Shown here: one piece after another, positions 18,020-55,505 of the stretch
Layout: the number at the start of each line of letters is the position of its first letter
Numbering within the stretch: position 1 is the first letter of the stretch
Assembly (NCBI GenBank): GCA_902779675.1
Contig: CACZCK010000003.1
Location: forward strand, 62,001-126,000
Source: an uncultured Coriobacteriaceae bacterium
Lineage (GTDB): Bacteria > Actinomycetota > Coriobacteriia > Coriobacteriales > Atopobiaceae
Direction: 5' to 3'
Length of the DNA: 64,000 nt
The notes under the pieces: model-generated
What the model saw: only the letters and a program-made list of their open reading frames with translations
The model's database searches: none
What the model was told of the DNA's origin: nothing
Translations under genes and position numbers: made by a program

Positions 18020-18064
18020 GTGCGAGATGCATGCGACACTGCTGCGACAAGGCACGTGTATAAA
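18020..18064 (+). promoter_or_regulatory. Repeat array and -10 element upstream of comEA
   Basis: Three direct repeats, TGCGAGA at 18021, TGCGACA at 18032 and TGCGACA at 18043, are spaced exactly 11 bases apart. TATAAA at 18059-18064 follows nine bases after the last repeat and has no recognisable -35 hexamer. This is the layout of an activator-dependent promoter whose activator sits on one face of the helix. A similar array precedes recA (54244-54293). Confidence 0.55.
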
Positions 18065-18092: not shown

Positions 18093-18119
18093 CCACCCCC
18101 ACCATGGTGATGGGGGTGG
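18093..18119 (+). promoter_or_regulatory. Hairpin covering the comEA ribosome site
   Basis: CCACCCCCA at 18093-18101 pairs with TGGGGGTGG at 18111-18119 around a nine-base loop. The 3' arm is the only purine-rich candidate ribosome site for the comEA ATG at 18126, six bases away. The hairpin may act as a thiI terminator, as a translation block, or both. Confidence 0.5.
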
Positions 18120-18125
18120 TCTGTT

Positions 18126-18833
18126 ATGGCGCAGAGGCACACAAGGGGCGCGAGCACACGCCGTGTGATGCGAAGGTTTGGGCTGACAGGAGCGCGTGGT
18201 GCCCTGGTGGCGCTCGTGGCCCTCTCCTGTGCTGCGGGAGGACTTGGCGCCGTATGGCAGAGCAGAGAGGCGACGAGCGTCATCGAGCGACGAGCGCCTG
18301 CGGAGGCGGGTGATACCTCGGGGGAGGTTGCGGACAAGCAGCTTACGCAGCCAGATGAGGAGCCACAGCCTGCCATATATGTGGTGCATGTGGATGGTGC
18401 GGTCGCATCTCCCGGGGTGGTGACCCTCGAAGGAAAGGGACTGCGGGTCTTCGATGCGGTCACAAAGGCCGGGGGCTTGCTCGACGACGCCGACACAACT
18501 TCGGTCAACCTCGCCGAACCACTCGCGGATGGGGCGAAGATTCACATACCAAGCGAGGGGGAGGCTCTCGTTGCAGAGCAAGGGGTTCCCGCGGCAGGCC
18601 AGCATGAGACCATGGGAGCAACGGACAGCGCCGAAGCCGTATCGCTCGTCAACATCAACACCGCGACGAGCGAGGAGCTGCAGGTGTTGTCCGGCGTGGG
18701 CGAGGCGACGGCCGCCGCAATCATACGCGAGCGTGAGGCAAACGGACCCTTTGCCGTACCCGAAGACCTCATGCGGGTCTCGGGCATAGGGGAGAAGAAG
18801 TTCGCAAAGGTCAGGGACCAGATCTGTGTCTAG
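18126..18833 (+). CDS. comEA: Competence protein ComEA, DNA receptor
   Basis: A 235-residue DNA-binding receptor for natural transformation. A single membrane anchor (ALVALVALSCAAGGLGAVW) lies at about residues 27-45, an acidic spacer follows, the SLBB-like domain (YVVHVDGAVASPGVVTLE) starts near 79, and two helix-hairpin-helix motifs (SGVGEATAAAIIRE and SGIGEKKFAKV) form the DNA-binding end at about 170-235. The start at 18126 gives a basic N-terminus before the anchor; an ATG at 18168 is possible. It overlaps comEC by eight bases, so both should be made together as the DNA uptake pair. Confidence 0.94.
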   Translation: MAQRHTRGASTRRVMRRFGLTGARGALVALVALSCAAGGLGAVWQSREATSVIERRAPAEAGDTSGEVADKQLTQPDEEPQPAIYVVHVDGAVASPGVVTLEGKGLRVFDAVTKAGGLLDDADTTSVNLAEPLADGAKIHIPSEGEALVAEQGVPAAGQHETMGATDSAEAVSLVNINTATSEELQVLSGVGEATAAAIIREREANGPFAVPEDLMRVSGIGEKKFAKVRDQICV

Positions 18834-21213
18834 GGACGAGGGGCGGTATCCGCCGCGCCCTGCCGTGCCCGTGGCCTTGTGGTGCCTCGTCATGGCATGG
18901 ATAGCGGTGTGGATCACAGGGCACGTCAGCCTAGGAGTGCCGGCACACGTCCTGGCAATGGCATGCGGTTGGGCATGCGCTGCGTCGCTCGTGGCGCTTG
19001 CCATCGCTGCGCGCATATGTGCATCTGCAGGCCACGAGCCGCCACCCGTCGCTCTTGTTGCGGCTTGCGTCATGCTCGCGGCGACGGCGTCTGCGTGCCA
19101 TGCGTTCGAGTCACGTGCGGAGACGCGCGATGCCCTCTGCTCGAGCAGTGCCGGTGACTGGACGTTCGAGGCTTGCGACGACCCAAAGGCCACAGAACAG
19201 GGCTTTCGGGTGCGAGCCAAGGCGCTTGGAGCGAGATCTCGGGGTGGCGCAGTGTGGCTTTTGTCATCCGAGCGTATCGGCAGAGGGGAGGAGGTGCGCA
19301 TCGTGGGACGGGTGCTACCGCTCGACGACAGCGCCTATGGGCGCAGCTCGTGGGCTCAAGGGGTGTGCGCGTCCGTACGCGTCGTGCGCATACGCGAGAA
19401 ACGCGAGCCACGAGGTTTGCTGGCAGGAGTGCTGCGTCTACGTGCGGCGATGCAAGCCTGCTTTGACCGATGCGACCCTGACGTCGCAGCAGTGCTTGGG
19501 GGCTGCCTGTGTGGCGATCGTGAGCGGCTCGACGAGCGCGGCTTAGGTGACGTGTTTGCGGCCTGCGGCGTTGCACACATGATGGCCGTGTCTGGCGCAC
19601 ATCTGGCCGTCATCGGGTCTGTGGTGGCAGCTGTACTCGAAAAGACTGCGATGGGGCCACAGGTGCGTCTTGGGACACAGTCGCTCATCCTGGGATGCTA
19701 CGTGCTGGTCTGTGGGGCGCCTGTGTCCGCACTTCGCGCATGGGCGATGACGACGGCCTCAGGGGTCGGGTCGGTCGTTGGCCGGCGCACCCATGCCACC
19801 TCGTCGGCTTCGGTCGTCGCACTGTCCATGGTGCTGTCGACGCCAACTGTCGCTGCTCGACTGGGGTTCTGCCTTTCTGTCGTATCTGTCGTGGGACTAT
19901 CGCTGCTGTGTCCTCATGCTGCCTACCTGTTGCGCACCCTTGTGCCGGCACCGTTGCTTTCCCGCAGGCTCGATTACGCCACGAGGCGGCAAATCTTGGG
20001 GGTATATGATGCGGCAGTGGGCTCTTGGGCGGCGACCATCGTGTGCCAGCTCGTCACCCTGCCCTTTGTTGCGAGCGCCTTTGGAAGGCTGTCGCTGTTG
20101 GCGCCGCTTGCCAACATGGTAGCCATGCCGCTCGTGCAAGCGGTCATGGCGCTCGGTATGGCTGCTGCCTGCCTTGGCGCCACGCCCATAGCGATACCGG
20201 TCCTGTCCGTCTGCTCCGTCCCATGTCACCTGCTGCTAAGGTGGCTTCGTCTGCTGGCGGGAGTCCCCCTGTGCACGGTACGCGTGTCCAGCGACTCTGC
20301 AGTCGTGTCGTTCGCGTCGCTCGCAATAGCAACTGCCTGGCTTCTTTGGTGGCCACGCATATCTCGTCGCCAGATGTTGCAGGTGATGACTGCGTTGCTT
20401 GTTGCCTATGCGCTGTGGTTCGCGCGCGCCAGATATCTGGCACCGGCACGCCTGGTGGTACTCGATGTCGGGCAGGGGGATGCGATTCTCATCCAAGACG
20501 GTGCGCACGCCCTGCTGGTCGACACGGGACCAGACGCCTCGGTCGCGGCGGCCCTACAGCGCCAGCACGTGGTTCACCTCGACGCGGTGTTGCTGACGCA
20601 TCTGCATGACGACCATTACGGAGGCATTGATGACCTCGTGGGCGTGGTGGGCTGCGATGCAGTGCTGGTCGCCCGCGGCGTGCGCGAAGCCATGGCCGAT
20701 GACCTGCGACAGGCATGTCATGACCTCTGCACACGCGAGGTCGTCGAACTCTCCTACGGCGATGTCGTGCATGTGGGAGGGTACGTACTGAAGATGGTGT
20801 GGCCCCACGATGTGGTCGATGGCGACGAGAATGCCGAGTCGATCGAGCTGCTTCTCGAGAGAGACGGAGGTGAGGGCCGATTCAGTGCCCTGCTCACGGG
20901 AGATGCCGAGCGCGACGAGACGAGAGCTTGCGTGGCCTGTGGCGATGTGGGCGATATAGACGTGCTCAAGGTGGGTCACCACGGGTCGGAGGTCTCGCTT
21001 GACGACGCAACGGCTCGCGTGTTGAGCCCGGAGGTGTCGATCGCGAGTGCGGGTGAGGGCAACTCGTATGGGCACCCCACAAAGGAGTGTCGAGAGGTAC
21101 TCGCTCAGGTGGACTCGCACTTCTATTGCACGATCGATGTGGGAGACGTCGAGGTGAGGCCTTGCCCGAAGGGACTGCTGGTCAGGACCGAGCGCGTCGC
21201 CAGTGCCGCATGA
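18826..21213 (+). CDS. comEC: Competence protein ComEC/Rec2, DNA channel
   Basis: A 795-residue polytopic membrane protein forming the channel for single-stranded DNA entry. The N-terminal third holds membrane segments and a soluble domain; the competence domain core FAACGVAHMMAVSGAHLAV lies near residues 245-263. The C-terminal 250 residues form a metallo-beta-lactamase domain with LTHLHDDHYGG near 588, proposed in the family to degrade the non-transforming strand. All three expected parts are present and there is no frameshift, so the protein looks functional. GTG start overlaps comEA. Confidence 0.95.
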   Translation: MSRDEGRYPPRPAVPVALWCLVMAWIAVWITGHVSLGVPAHVLAMACGWACAASLVALAIAARICASAGHEPPPVALVAACVMLAATASACHAFESRAETRDALCSSSAGDWTFEACDDPKATEQGFRVRAKALGARSRGGAVWLLSSERIGRGEEVRIVGRVLPLDDSAYGRSSWAQGVCASVRVVRIREKREPRGLLAGVLRLRAAMQACFDRCDPDVAAVLGGCLCGDRERLDERGLGDVFAACGVAHMMAVSGAHLAVIGSVVAAVLEKTAMGPQVRLGTQSLILGCYVLVCGAPVSALRAWAMTTASGVGSVVGRRTHATSSASVVALSMVLSTPTVAARLGFCLSVVSVVGLSLLCPHAAYLLRTLVPAPLLSRRLDYATRRQILGVYDAAVGSWAATIVCQLVTLPFVASAFGRLSLLAPLANMVAMPLVQAVMALGMAAACLGATPIAIPVLSVCSVPCHLLLRWLRLLAGVPLCTVRVSSDSAVVSFASLAIATAWLLWWPRISRRQMLQVMTALLVAYALWFARARYLAPARLVVLDVGQGDAILIQDGAHALLVDTGPDASVAAALQRQHVVHLDAVLLTHLHDDHYGGIDDLVGVVGCDAVLVARGVREAMADDLRQACHDLCTREVVELSYGDVVHVGGYVLKMVWPHDVVDGDENAESIELLLERDGGEGRFSALLTGDAERDETRACVACGDVGDIDVLKVGHHGSEVSLDDATARVLSPEVSIASAGEGNSYGHPTKECREVLAQVDSHFYCTIDVGDVEVRPCPKGLLVRTERVASAA

Positions 21214-22247: not shown

Positions 22248-22952
22248 TCAGACCCTCACCATGCGGTAGCCGACGCCCACGTGCGTCTGGATGTAGCGCG
22301 GGCGGGAGGGGTTCTCCTCGATCTTCTTGCGCAGCGTGCCCATGAACACGCGCAGTGACGCGAGGTCTCCGTCCTGCGAGGTGCCCCACACCTCGTGGAG
22401 GATGTACTGATGGGTAAGCACACGGTCAATATTGTGGGCGAGCAGGCACAGGAGCTTGTATTCCATGGGAGTCAGGTGCAACTCGTTGCCGTCGAGACTG
22501 ACGGTTCCTGCCGCGTAGTCGATGCACAGACCGCCGTTCTCGAAGAGCGACTGTTGGCTTGCGGCATCATCCGACATATATCCCAGGTGGCGCTCGGTGG
22601 CGCGCAGGCGCGCGAGCAACTCGCCGACCGAGAAGGGCTTGGAGAGGTAGTCGTCAGCCCCGGCGTCGAGCGCCTCGATTTTGTCGGTGTCGTTGGAGCG
22701 CGCGGACAAAACGATGATCGGCATCGTCGACCAGGTGCGTACGCGCTTGATGACCTCGATGCCGTCGAGGTCGGGTAGCCCGAGGTCGAGCAGCATGATG
22801 TCGGGATTGGTGGTGGCAGCAGCCGCGATGGCCGACTGCCCCGTCGCCGCGGTGGCGTACCGATAGCCACGAGAGTCAAGCGCCGTCGCAACGAGGTTCC
22901 TCACGGCGGGGTCGTCCTCGACGACGAGGATCGTGTGCGTTCCGTCAGGCAT
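22248..22952 (-). CDS. kdpE: KdpE-like response regulator
   Basis: A 234-residue OmpR/PhoB-type regulator. The receiver domain has the acidic pair in VVEDDP, the phosphorylated Asp56 in MLLDLGLPD, and Lys105 in YLSKPF. The C-terminal winged helix ends with LRKKIEENPSRPRYIQTHVG and GYRMV. It is closest in character to KdpE, the activator of potassium uptake genes. It overlaps the kinase gene by eight bases. No kdpFABC pump is seen; the divergent neighbour is a Kup transporter, and an 11-bp repeat array in front of kup is its probable target. Confidence 0.9.
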   Translation of the reverse strand: MPDGTHTILVVEDDPAVRNLVATALDSRGYRYATAATGQSAIAAAATTNPDIMLLDLGLPDLDGIEVIKRVRTWSTMPIIVLSARSNDTDKIEALDAGADDYLSKPFSVGELLARLRATERHLGYMSDDAASQQSLFENGGLCIDYAAGTVSLDGNELHLTPMEYKLLCLLAHNIDRVLTHQYILHEVWGTSQDGDLASLRVFMGTLRKKIEENPSRPRYIQTHVGVGYRMVRV

Positions 22953-24394: not shown

Positions 24395-24487
24395 TAAAGA
24401 GGGGGTAAAGACGCCTGTTGAATGCGTATAAAGGTATGAGCTTTAGTGCTAAAGGATGCCTAAAGGAGACATAAAGCTGACATAAAG
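24395..24487 (+). promoter_or_regulatory. 11-bp-phased TAAAG repeat array upstream of kup
   Basis: TAAAG occurs at 24395, 24406, 24429, 24450, 24461, 24472 and 24483, all on the + strand. The last four are exactly 11 bases apart, the first two also, and the gaps of 23 and 21 are near two turns. OmpR/PhoB-type regulators bind 11-bp direct repeats, so KdpE from the adjacent operon is the natural candidate. The array lies between the divergent small-protein/kdpD/kdpE genes and kup. Confidence 0.65.
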
Positions 24488-54168: not shown

Positions 54169-54173
54169 GTTGT

Positions 54174-54202
54174 CGTGCGACATATACGCCTCATGTCGCA
54201 CG
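54174..54202. repeat. Inverted pair of GTGCGACAT
   Basis: CGTGCGACAT (54174-54183) and ATGTCGCACG (54193-54202) form a 10-bp stem with a nine-base loop just after the cinA stop. No T-run follows. The same word recurs as direct repeats 65-110 bases downstream. Confidence 0.6.
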
Positions 54203-54243
54203 CACCAATATGGCGAGCTTGTCCGACGAATGGACAAGGCGCC

Positions 54244-54293
54244 TGCGTGTTTGCTGCGACCTTGGTACGACATCGTGCGAGATTGGTGCGACA
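54244..54293 (+). promoter_or_regulatory. Phased TGCGACA repeat array upstream of recA
   Basis: Repeats TGCGTGT (54244), TGCGACC (54255), TACGACA (54266), TGCGAGA (54276) and TGCGACA (54287) are spaced 11, 11, 10 and 11 bases. A -10-like GATAAG at 54301-54306 lies seven bases after the last. Order and spacing closely resemble the comEA array. This is proposed as a second recA promoter (P1). Confidence 0.55.
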
Positions 54294-54320
54294 TCCCCCT
54301 GATAAGGTTTGAGATGCCGT

Positions 54321-54349
54321 TTGACACACGAACGGTTGTTCGCTCTTGT
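54321..54349 (+). promoter_or_regulatory. recA promoter with LexA operator
   Basis: TTGACA at 54321-54326 is a perfect -35; the -10 position (TCTTGT, 54344-54349) is weak. Between them CGAAC-GGTT-GTTCG at 54329-54342 is an exact match to the Gram-positive LexA box (CGAAC, four bases, GTTCG). LexA bound here would block the polymerase, so recA is SOS-controlled. A probable lexA end lies at the right edge of the window. Confidence 0.85.
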
Positions 54350-54377: not shown

Positions 54378-55505
54378 ATGGCAAGAGGCAAGAACGTATC
54401 GCGCGAGATCCACGAGAAGACGTATGGCGAGGAGCGCGACAAGGTCATAGAGAACACCACCAAGGAGATCGTCAAGAAGTTTGGCAACGGCTCCATCATG
54501 CGTTTTGGAGACTCGGGCCCCGAACTCGAGATCGAGGCCATTCCTACGGGATCCATCGCGCTCGACGCCGCCCTGGGCATCGGCGGCGTGCCACGTGGCC
54601 GCATCATCGAGATCTATGGCCCCGAGTCATCGGGCAAGACCACGCTCTCGCTCGAGATCCTTGCCGAGGCCCAGGCCATGGGCGGTGTCGTCGCCTTCAT
54701 CGATGCCGAGCACGCCCTCGATCCAGGCTATGCGGCCCGCATCGGCGTCGATATCGACGAGGTGCTCATATCGCAACCCGACACCGGAGAGCAGGCTCTC
54801 GAGATCTGCGACATGCTCGTGCGCTCTGGTGCCATCGACGTCGTGGTCATCGACTCTGTCGCCGCACTGGTGCCCCGCGCCGAGATCGAGGGAGAGATCG
54901 GCGATACCACCGTGGGTCTGCAGGCACGACTCATGAGCCAGGCGCTCCGAAAACTCGCCGGTTCCCTCTCCAAGTCCAAGACGACCTGCATCTTCATCAA
55001 CCAGCTGCGCGAGAAGATCGGCGTGATGTTCGGCAACCCCGAGACCACCCCTGGTGGAAGGGCCCTCAAGTTCTTCTCCTCGGTGCGCCTCGAGATCCGC
55101 CGCATCGACACCATCAAGAAGAACGGCGACATCACGGGCAACCGCGTGCGCGTCAAGGTCGTCAAGAACAAGGTGGCACCGCCGTTCCGCCAGGCCGAGT
55201 TCGACATCATGTACGGCACCGGCATATCCAAGGAGGGTTCGCTGCTCGATCTTGCGGTCGATCTCGACATCGTCAATAAGTCAGGCGCCTGGTACACCTA
55301 CGGCCAAGAGCGCCTTGGCCAGGGTCGCGAGGCTGCAAAGGAGTTCCTCGCCACCACGCCGGACCTCTTCGACGAGATCGACCATAAGGTCCGCGTCGCC
55401 TGCGGGCTCGAGTTCGGCGACGAACCAGTCGGTGAGCCTATCGATGGAGTCTTCGATGCCAACACGTCGTCTGTCGTGATCGACGCGCCTTCTGGCATAC
55501 AGTAA
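54378..55505 (+). CDS. recA: Recombinase RecA
   Basis: A 375-residue RecA that forms filaments on single-stranded DNA, exchanges strands and triggers LexA self-cleavage. Walker [10 protein letters not shown] is at about residues 84-92, Walker [13 protein letters not shown] near 158, and the C-terminal domain is acidic. About 20 residues precede the usual homologous start ([20 protein letters not shown]), a modest N-terminal extension. The start is the ATG at 54378 behind CTGGGGG. Upstream are the LexA box and the repeat array. recX follows two bases after the stop. Confidence 0.97.

Follow-up and report, generated by a model that had tools for sequence, protein, structure and literature searches.

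In Bacillus subtilis, a single activator, ComK, governs DNA uptake, the pilus, dprA, ssb and recA. The SsbA and RecA proteins are increased in the competent subpopulation of this organism (PMC7317962). The ComX (sigma-X) regulon of streptococci has an overlapping set of core genes, comEA-EC, dprA, ssb and recA. Among the Actinomycetota, Micrococcus luteus possesses ComEA/EC and Tad/Flp pili, and the Tad/Flp pilus is required for its transformation (PMC4322843). A 2026 report on M. luteus states that the upstream signals and the regulatory nodes of the competence cascade are still to be identified (PMC12849477). No published competence regulator or operator was found in the literature for the Atopobiaceae/Coriobacteriia lineage, including Olsenella.

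The 11-bp repeats bound by OmpR/PhoB-type activators replace the -35 element. The PhoB box consists of two 11-bp direct repeats (PMC3978041). SARP operators are made of heptamers with 4-nt spacers, 11 bp for each monomer (PMC5930380). In the Streptomyces operators of the PimR/pimM and ActII-ORF4 type, these direct repeats lie on one helix face near the -35 position. We know of no competence regulator in the OmpR/SARP winged-helix class.

Phased words upstream of comEA and recA

The window, which is the whole 64-kb stretch of DNA analysed, contains comEA (18126–18833), comEC (18826–21213) and recA (54378–55505, with the ATG at 54378), the last followed by recX; these and the features of the comEA and recA upstream regions are on the plus strand unless stated. 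ComEA matches TIGR00426 above the cut-off and TIGR01259 below it, ComEC matches TIGR00360 above the cut-off and TIGR00361 just below it, and RecA is far above the cut-off of TIGR02012.

The putative operator of comEA-comEC (18021–18049) comprises TGCGAGA, TGCGACA and TGCGACA, which start at 18021, 18032 and 18043 with 11-bp spacing, and TATAAA follows at 18059. The putative recA operator (54244–54293) has five words starting at 54244, 54255, 54266, 54276 and 54287 (spacing 11, 11, 10 and 11 bp), with GATAAG at 54301. All of these positions had been given in the first-pass annotation and are correct base for base. It had also described the distance from the last word to the -10-like element as nearly equal at the two sites; the distance is in fact identical, since the start of the last word and the start of TATAAA (18059–18064) or TAAGGT (54303–54308) are exactly 16 bp apart at each site. 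TAAGGT is the putative -10 of the recA array promoter, and about 25 sister promoters carry a TANNNT hexamer at this offset. TATAAA is taken as a putative -10 by its matching offset, and the assignment is less certain at comEA/cpaB than at recA/rpsF.

The window was scored on both strands for three TGCRAS words with 10- or 11-bp spacing (maximum score 18). Only the comEA and recA loci reached 17/18. Dinucleotide shuffles (n = 200) gave a mean of 0.1 loci at this score, and two or more loci in 0.5% of cases. Three-word arrays with one mismatch or less occur 6 times in the whole genome (2.9 Mb) versus 0 for a reversed control, and about 33 times in 18 congeneric genomes versus 7. On the shuffles and the reversed-pattern controls, a chance origin of the arrays was rejected.

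The first-pass annotation had proposed a common phased promoter for comEA-comEC and recA. The words and the spacing bear this out, but recA has in addition a separate sigma70-type SOS promoter farther downstream (54321–54349, TTGACA-N17-TCTTGT). Its spacer contains the LexA-type sequence CGAACGGTTGTTCG at 54329–54342, a CGAAC-N4-GTTCG box of the actinobacterial/Bacillus kind, in keeping with an SOS gene. The TTGACA (54321) and the LexA-type box are kept in congeners. Because this SOS promoter is present, the array would serve as a second, upstream control of recA.

Inverted copies of the word lie about 30–70 bp upstream of several arrays (L022, L023 and L021:8010-8025). In the window, a distal inverted pair, GTGCGACAT ... 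ATGTCGCAC, is located at 54171–54206 (no strand assigned), 50–68 bp upstream of the recA array, and similar distal words accompany 4–5 of the 7 array promoters of this genome. A role in looping, or as an auxiliary or second site, is possible.

Array-preceded genes in the genome and its relatives

Arrays of 3–5 hexamer words at 11-bp, occasionally 10-bp, spacing are found in the genome of the window and in 17 congeners (Atopobiaceae, Coriobacteriia). The transformation genes that they precede are comEA-comEC, recA, the Tad/Flp pilus operon (cpaB), yraN-comM-dprA and rpsF-ssb-rpsR. According to the sequence scans, comEA-EC, the pilus genes, dprA/comM, ssb and recA thus have an operator in common, as a competence regulon requires. 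In the genome of the window, near-perfect arrays stand before cpaB-cpaE of the Tad/Flp operon (C24), a sortase-dependent SpaA-type pilin operon (C3:272070), a SEC-C protein gene (C19), genes of two families designated A (AbiEi-like, C20) and B (C2, C1), and a gene for a small protein on C8. The arrays before yraN-comM and rpsF are weaker. Several of the array-preceded genes have no known link to transformation.

Protein search placed comEA and cpaB in 17 congener genomes each and recA and yraN in 16 each, and the sequence ahead of every gene was read; rpsF was located in 15. Most of these upstream sequences contain phased words. The comEA arrays lie 105–107 bp ahead of the start codon in 9 congeneric genomes. 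comM is downstream of yraN, joined in G020 by dprA, and the rpsF operon includes ssb and rpsR. Thus the further targets that the first-pass annotation had anticipated were largely recovered: dprA (in yraN-comM-dprA), pilus genes (cpaB) and ssb (in rpsF-ssb-rpsR) all have arrays, and the arrays at comEA and recA are conserved among orthologues. The exception is comF, which was not among the matches. The narrower view that the array serves uptake and recombination holds for the core transformation genes, but the set is wider and takes in sortase pilins and the SEC-C, AbiEi-like and nuclease-like proteins.

Two profiles built on held-out promoters were used; their E-values are rough owing to a shortened calibration. 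Profile R1, from the comEA and cpaB promoters of 8 congeners with the genome of the window excluded, recovered in that genome the arrays of family A (2.6e-10), spaA (1.0e-8), SEC-C (1.2e-6), cpaB (2.1e-5) and comEA (0.006). Weaker matches were two family-B sites (0.02 and 0.13), an unassigned site on C20 (0.17), recA (0.22) and the C8 gene (0.42); the weak yraN and rpsF arrays of this genome were not reported. Pilins, rpsF, yraN and recA were also recovered by R1 in sister genomes. For profile R2 the training set was limited to comEA promoters from genera other than that of the window, and 61 genomes of the family were scanned. At E<0.005 it gave 15 matches, namely 5 comEA, 4 cpaB, 3 family B, 1 yraN and 2 unrelated or unclear. 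Up to E 0.03, its matches cover cpaB (4 genomes), yraN (2) and family-B genes (3), with yraN-comM-dprA at 0.024. R2 thereby recovers these targets in further genera.

The less familiar products were compared with PDB and Pfam/NCBIfam, and families A to C received no confident function except for the AbiEi-like assignment. Family A (L217, L165, L170, L233, L245, L248, L317) is AbiEi-like, with a PADLOC AbiEi match for L233 at E 5e-8. A gene for a TfoX N-terminal-domain protein (L023:10277-10585) adjoins a family-A array gene and is divergent from it. Family B (L027, L147, L156, L243, L252, L330, L331) has a very weak Vsr-like mobile-intron nuclease match (E 0.27). Family C (L163, L244, L246, L247) consists of proteins of about 350 aa whose C-terminal part looks like a winged helix; they stand behind arrays in G008, G010, G011 and G013, and L163 has no Pfam or NCBIfam match. 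The SpaA-type sortase pilin operon is behind an array in at least 6 species (L021:8071-14397; L150, L237, L238, L239, L242), which raises the possibility that cells make sortase pili together with the transformation pilus.

Word drift, fixed phase and promoter geometry

The word varies by lineage, as TGCGAC, TGCAGC or TGTCAG, and the 11-bp phase is retained. Even among the congeners, one subclade uses TGCGAC/TGCGAG and the other TGCAGC/TGCCAG/TGCAAG at equal spacing. In other genera (Olsenella, Tractidigestivibacter, Thermophilibacter, Atopobium and uncultured relatives), autocorrelation over 25 sequences taken upstream of comEA shows peaks at lag 11 (z=8.3) and lag 22 (z=6.1), versus z of 0.2 and -1.4 at lag 11 in control regions farther upstream. 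The consensus there is TGTCAG-N5; its resemblance to the pho-box CTGTCAT is a lead only. A constant phase with a changing word is what is expected from co-evolution with a single DNA-binding protein.

Unsupervised motif finding in the recA, rpsF, yraN, SEC-C and family-B/D promoters returned TGCGAC-N5-TGCGAC-N5-GCGTAG-N5-TGCRAC followed by TANNNT. In the roughly 25 promoters of the recA, rpsF, SEC-C and family-B class, this hexamer keeps a 16-bp offset, measured between its start and that of the last word; yraN promoters have MATCCT in its place. In this class the last repeat is about 10 bp from the -10 and a -35 is missing, which fits the OmpR/PhoB-type geometry. The fixed offset at recA, rpsF and SEC-C therefore indicates that the array replaces the -35, as in activation by OmpR/PhoB or SARP proteins. 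Promoters of the comEA/cpaB class lack a clear -10 and show a conserved CGTAYATSAATTGARA block in its place.

The 5′-UTR of comEA contains a hairpin, CCACCCCCACC-ATG-GTGATGGGGGTGG (18093–18119), which pairs with the probable Shine-Dalgarno sequence (-30.6 kcal/mol, z -1.8). Hairpins at this place were also observed in L064, L072, L101 and L130-L144, with stems of quite different sequence, and loop lengths differ between relatives too widely for alignment. The persistence of the hairpin across species and genera despite these differing stems suggests translational control of comEA by occlusion of the Shine-Dalgarno.

The putative activator and the alternatives

The operator type matches the winged-helix activators, whose known sites are heptamers separated by 4 nt (SARP proteins) or direct repeats of 11 bp (PhoB). 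Like the SARP operators, the three comEA repeats are heptamers with 4-nt spacers, present in at least three copies; unlike them, the arrays have a different word and precede competence genes rather than antibiotic clusters. The arrays share with the pho box 11-bp direct-repeat units in place of the -35. However, the pho box has two units and the arrays three to five, and the identified targets include no phosphate genes. The likeness to the ComK regulon lies in one activator, here postulated, over uptake, pilus, dprA, ssb and recA, but the boxes bound by ComK are AT-rich and none is seen here, and the pilus is of the Tad/Flp rather than the ComG type. The core genes overlap with those of ComX, yet the promoters have a putative activator array with a sigma-A-like -10, and the cin-box TACGAATA is absent upstream of comEA and recA when the sequence is read by eye. 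M. luteus resembles this lineage in phylum and apparatus, but no operator or regulator has been described for it.

We are fairly confident that the arrays are the operators of a competence regulon under one OmpR/PhoB- or SARP-type winged-helix activator. A single activator on one helix face had been suggested in the first-pass annotation, a reading that is still an inference. The activator would bind cooperatively, with a monomer on every 11-bp word and all on one helix face, and would activate rather than repress. Because roughly 10 bp separate the end of the last word from a TANNNT that lacks a -35, the bound protein is proposed to recruit sigma-A RNA polymerase (class II activation). The activator would turn on DNA capture through the Tad pilus (cpaB operon), uptake (comEA-comEC), protection and loading of single-stranded DNA (rpsF-ssb-rpsR and yraN-comM-dprA) and recombination (recA, beside its LexA promoter). 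The programme would also take in sortase pilins and a number of uncharacterised proteins. Natural transformation is in this way probably a programme that one activator turns on, and transformable cells would be the outcome.

The genome of the window encodes 9 Trans_reg_C (OmpR-type wHTH) proteins, and none of the 9 genes has an upstream array, which gives no sign of autoregulation. Best placed among the candidates is a SARP-like REC+wHTH response regulator, which is encoded with a His_kinase/HATPase sensor kinase directly ahead of ligA, the DNA ligase gene (L259:3909-8275). It has orthologues in 12 of 18 congeners and was kept as a weak candidate only, being missing in the other 6. KdpE (22248–22952), the wHTH gene nearest comEC, was rejected as the most likely regulator, because its partners are a KdpD-like kinase, kup and an array built from a different word. 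In that array, on the minus strand (24448–24487) between kup and the KdpD/KdpE-like pair, four CTTTATG/CTTTAGG words lie exactly 11 bp apart; it is probably the KdpE operator, an internal case of like architecture with another word. A universal LytTR response regulator (L300 and relatives) was also set aside; it has no upstream array in the genome of the window and looks like part of a LytS/LytR pair.

Repeats at 11 bp are common to OmpR-type regulators in general, and the CTTTATG array shows them in the same window. A global nutrient or stress regulator of the PhoP, GlnR or KdpE kind could accordingly cover the transformation genes incidentally, with no dedicated competence regulator, and the presence of the TGCGAC-type box at pilins and unknown proteins would agree with this. 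Yet the array matches are few and mostly transformation operons, no phosphate, nitrogen or potassium uptake gene is among the identified targets, and the KdpE-like array carries a different word; such a regulator is unlikely, though it is the alternative that we take most seriously.

It is quite improbable that an alternative sigma factor of the streptococcal ComX or Bacillus SigH type reads a block near the start point, with the words as accessories. The comEA/cpaB promoters of the genus of the window do have RCGTAYATSAATTGARA in common downstream of the words, and cousin promoters share GAATT or CTTTCT blocks. However, the recA, rpsF and SEC-C promoters have an ordinary TANNNT -10 at fixed offset and lack the comEA/cpaB block, and the phased words are the feature common to all promoter classes. 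A dispersed intergenic repeat, or chance with shared ancestry, could draw on the descent of the congeneric promoters from one another and on the matches before genes without a known link. Such an origin without regulatory role is very hard to reconcile with the constant spacing of the arrays from the start codon and the -10 in orthologues, the arrays at unrelated targets within one genome, the drift of the word across genera with the phase kept, and the recovery by the profiles of competence operons on which they were not trained; we regard it as barely credible.

The arrays are best read, then, as operators of a competence regulon. A fuller proposal, to which we give about an even chance, is that the Atopobiaceae have a dedicated master competence activator of the OmpR/SARP class, the first such regulon in the Actinomycetota. 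Its word would have been rewritten repeatedly with the phase fixed, and its programme would extend to sortase pili and to AbiEi-like and Vsr-like nuclease-type proteins, with the ribosome-binding site of comEA masked by a conserved hairpin.

The regulation of competence in high-GC Gram-positives is an open question, for which the arrays supply a concrete operator and a gene list. The ungapped probe sequence could let the regulator be fished out of a culturable Atopobiaceae isolate. In this little-studied family of gut bacteria, genes for DNA uptake and recombination that are scattered on the chromosome carry one promoter signal, and the arrays point to unstudied genes as part of the transformation process. 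The prediction is that many gut and rumen Coriobacteriia would be naturally transformable through the Tad pilus.
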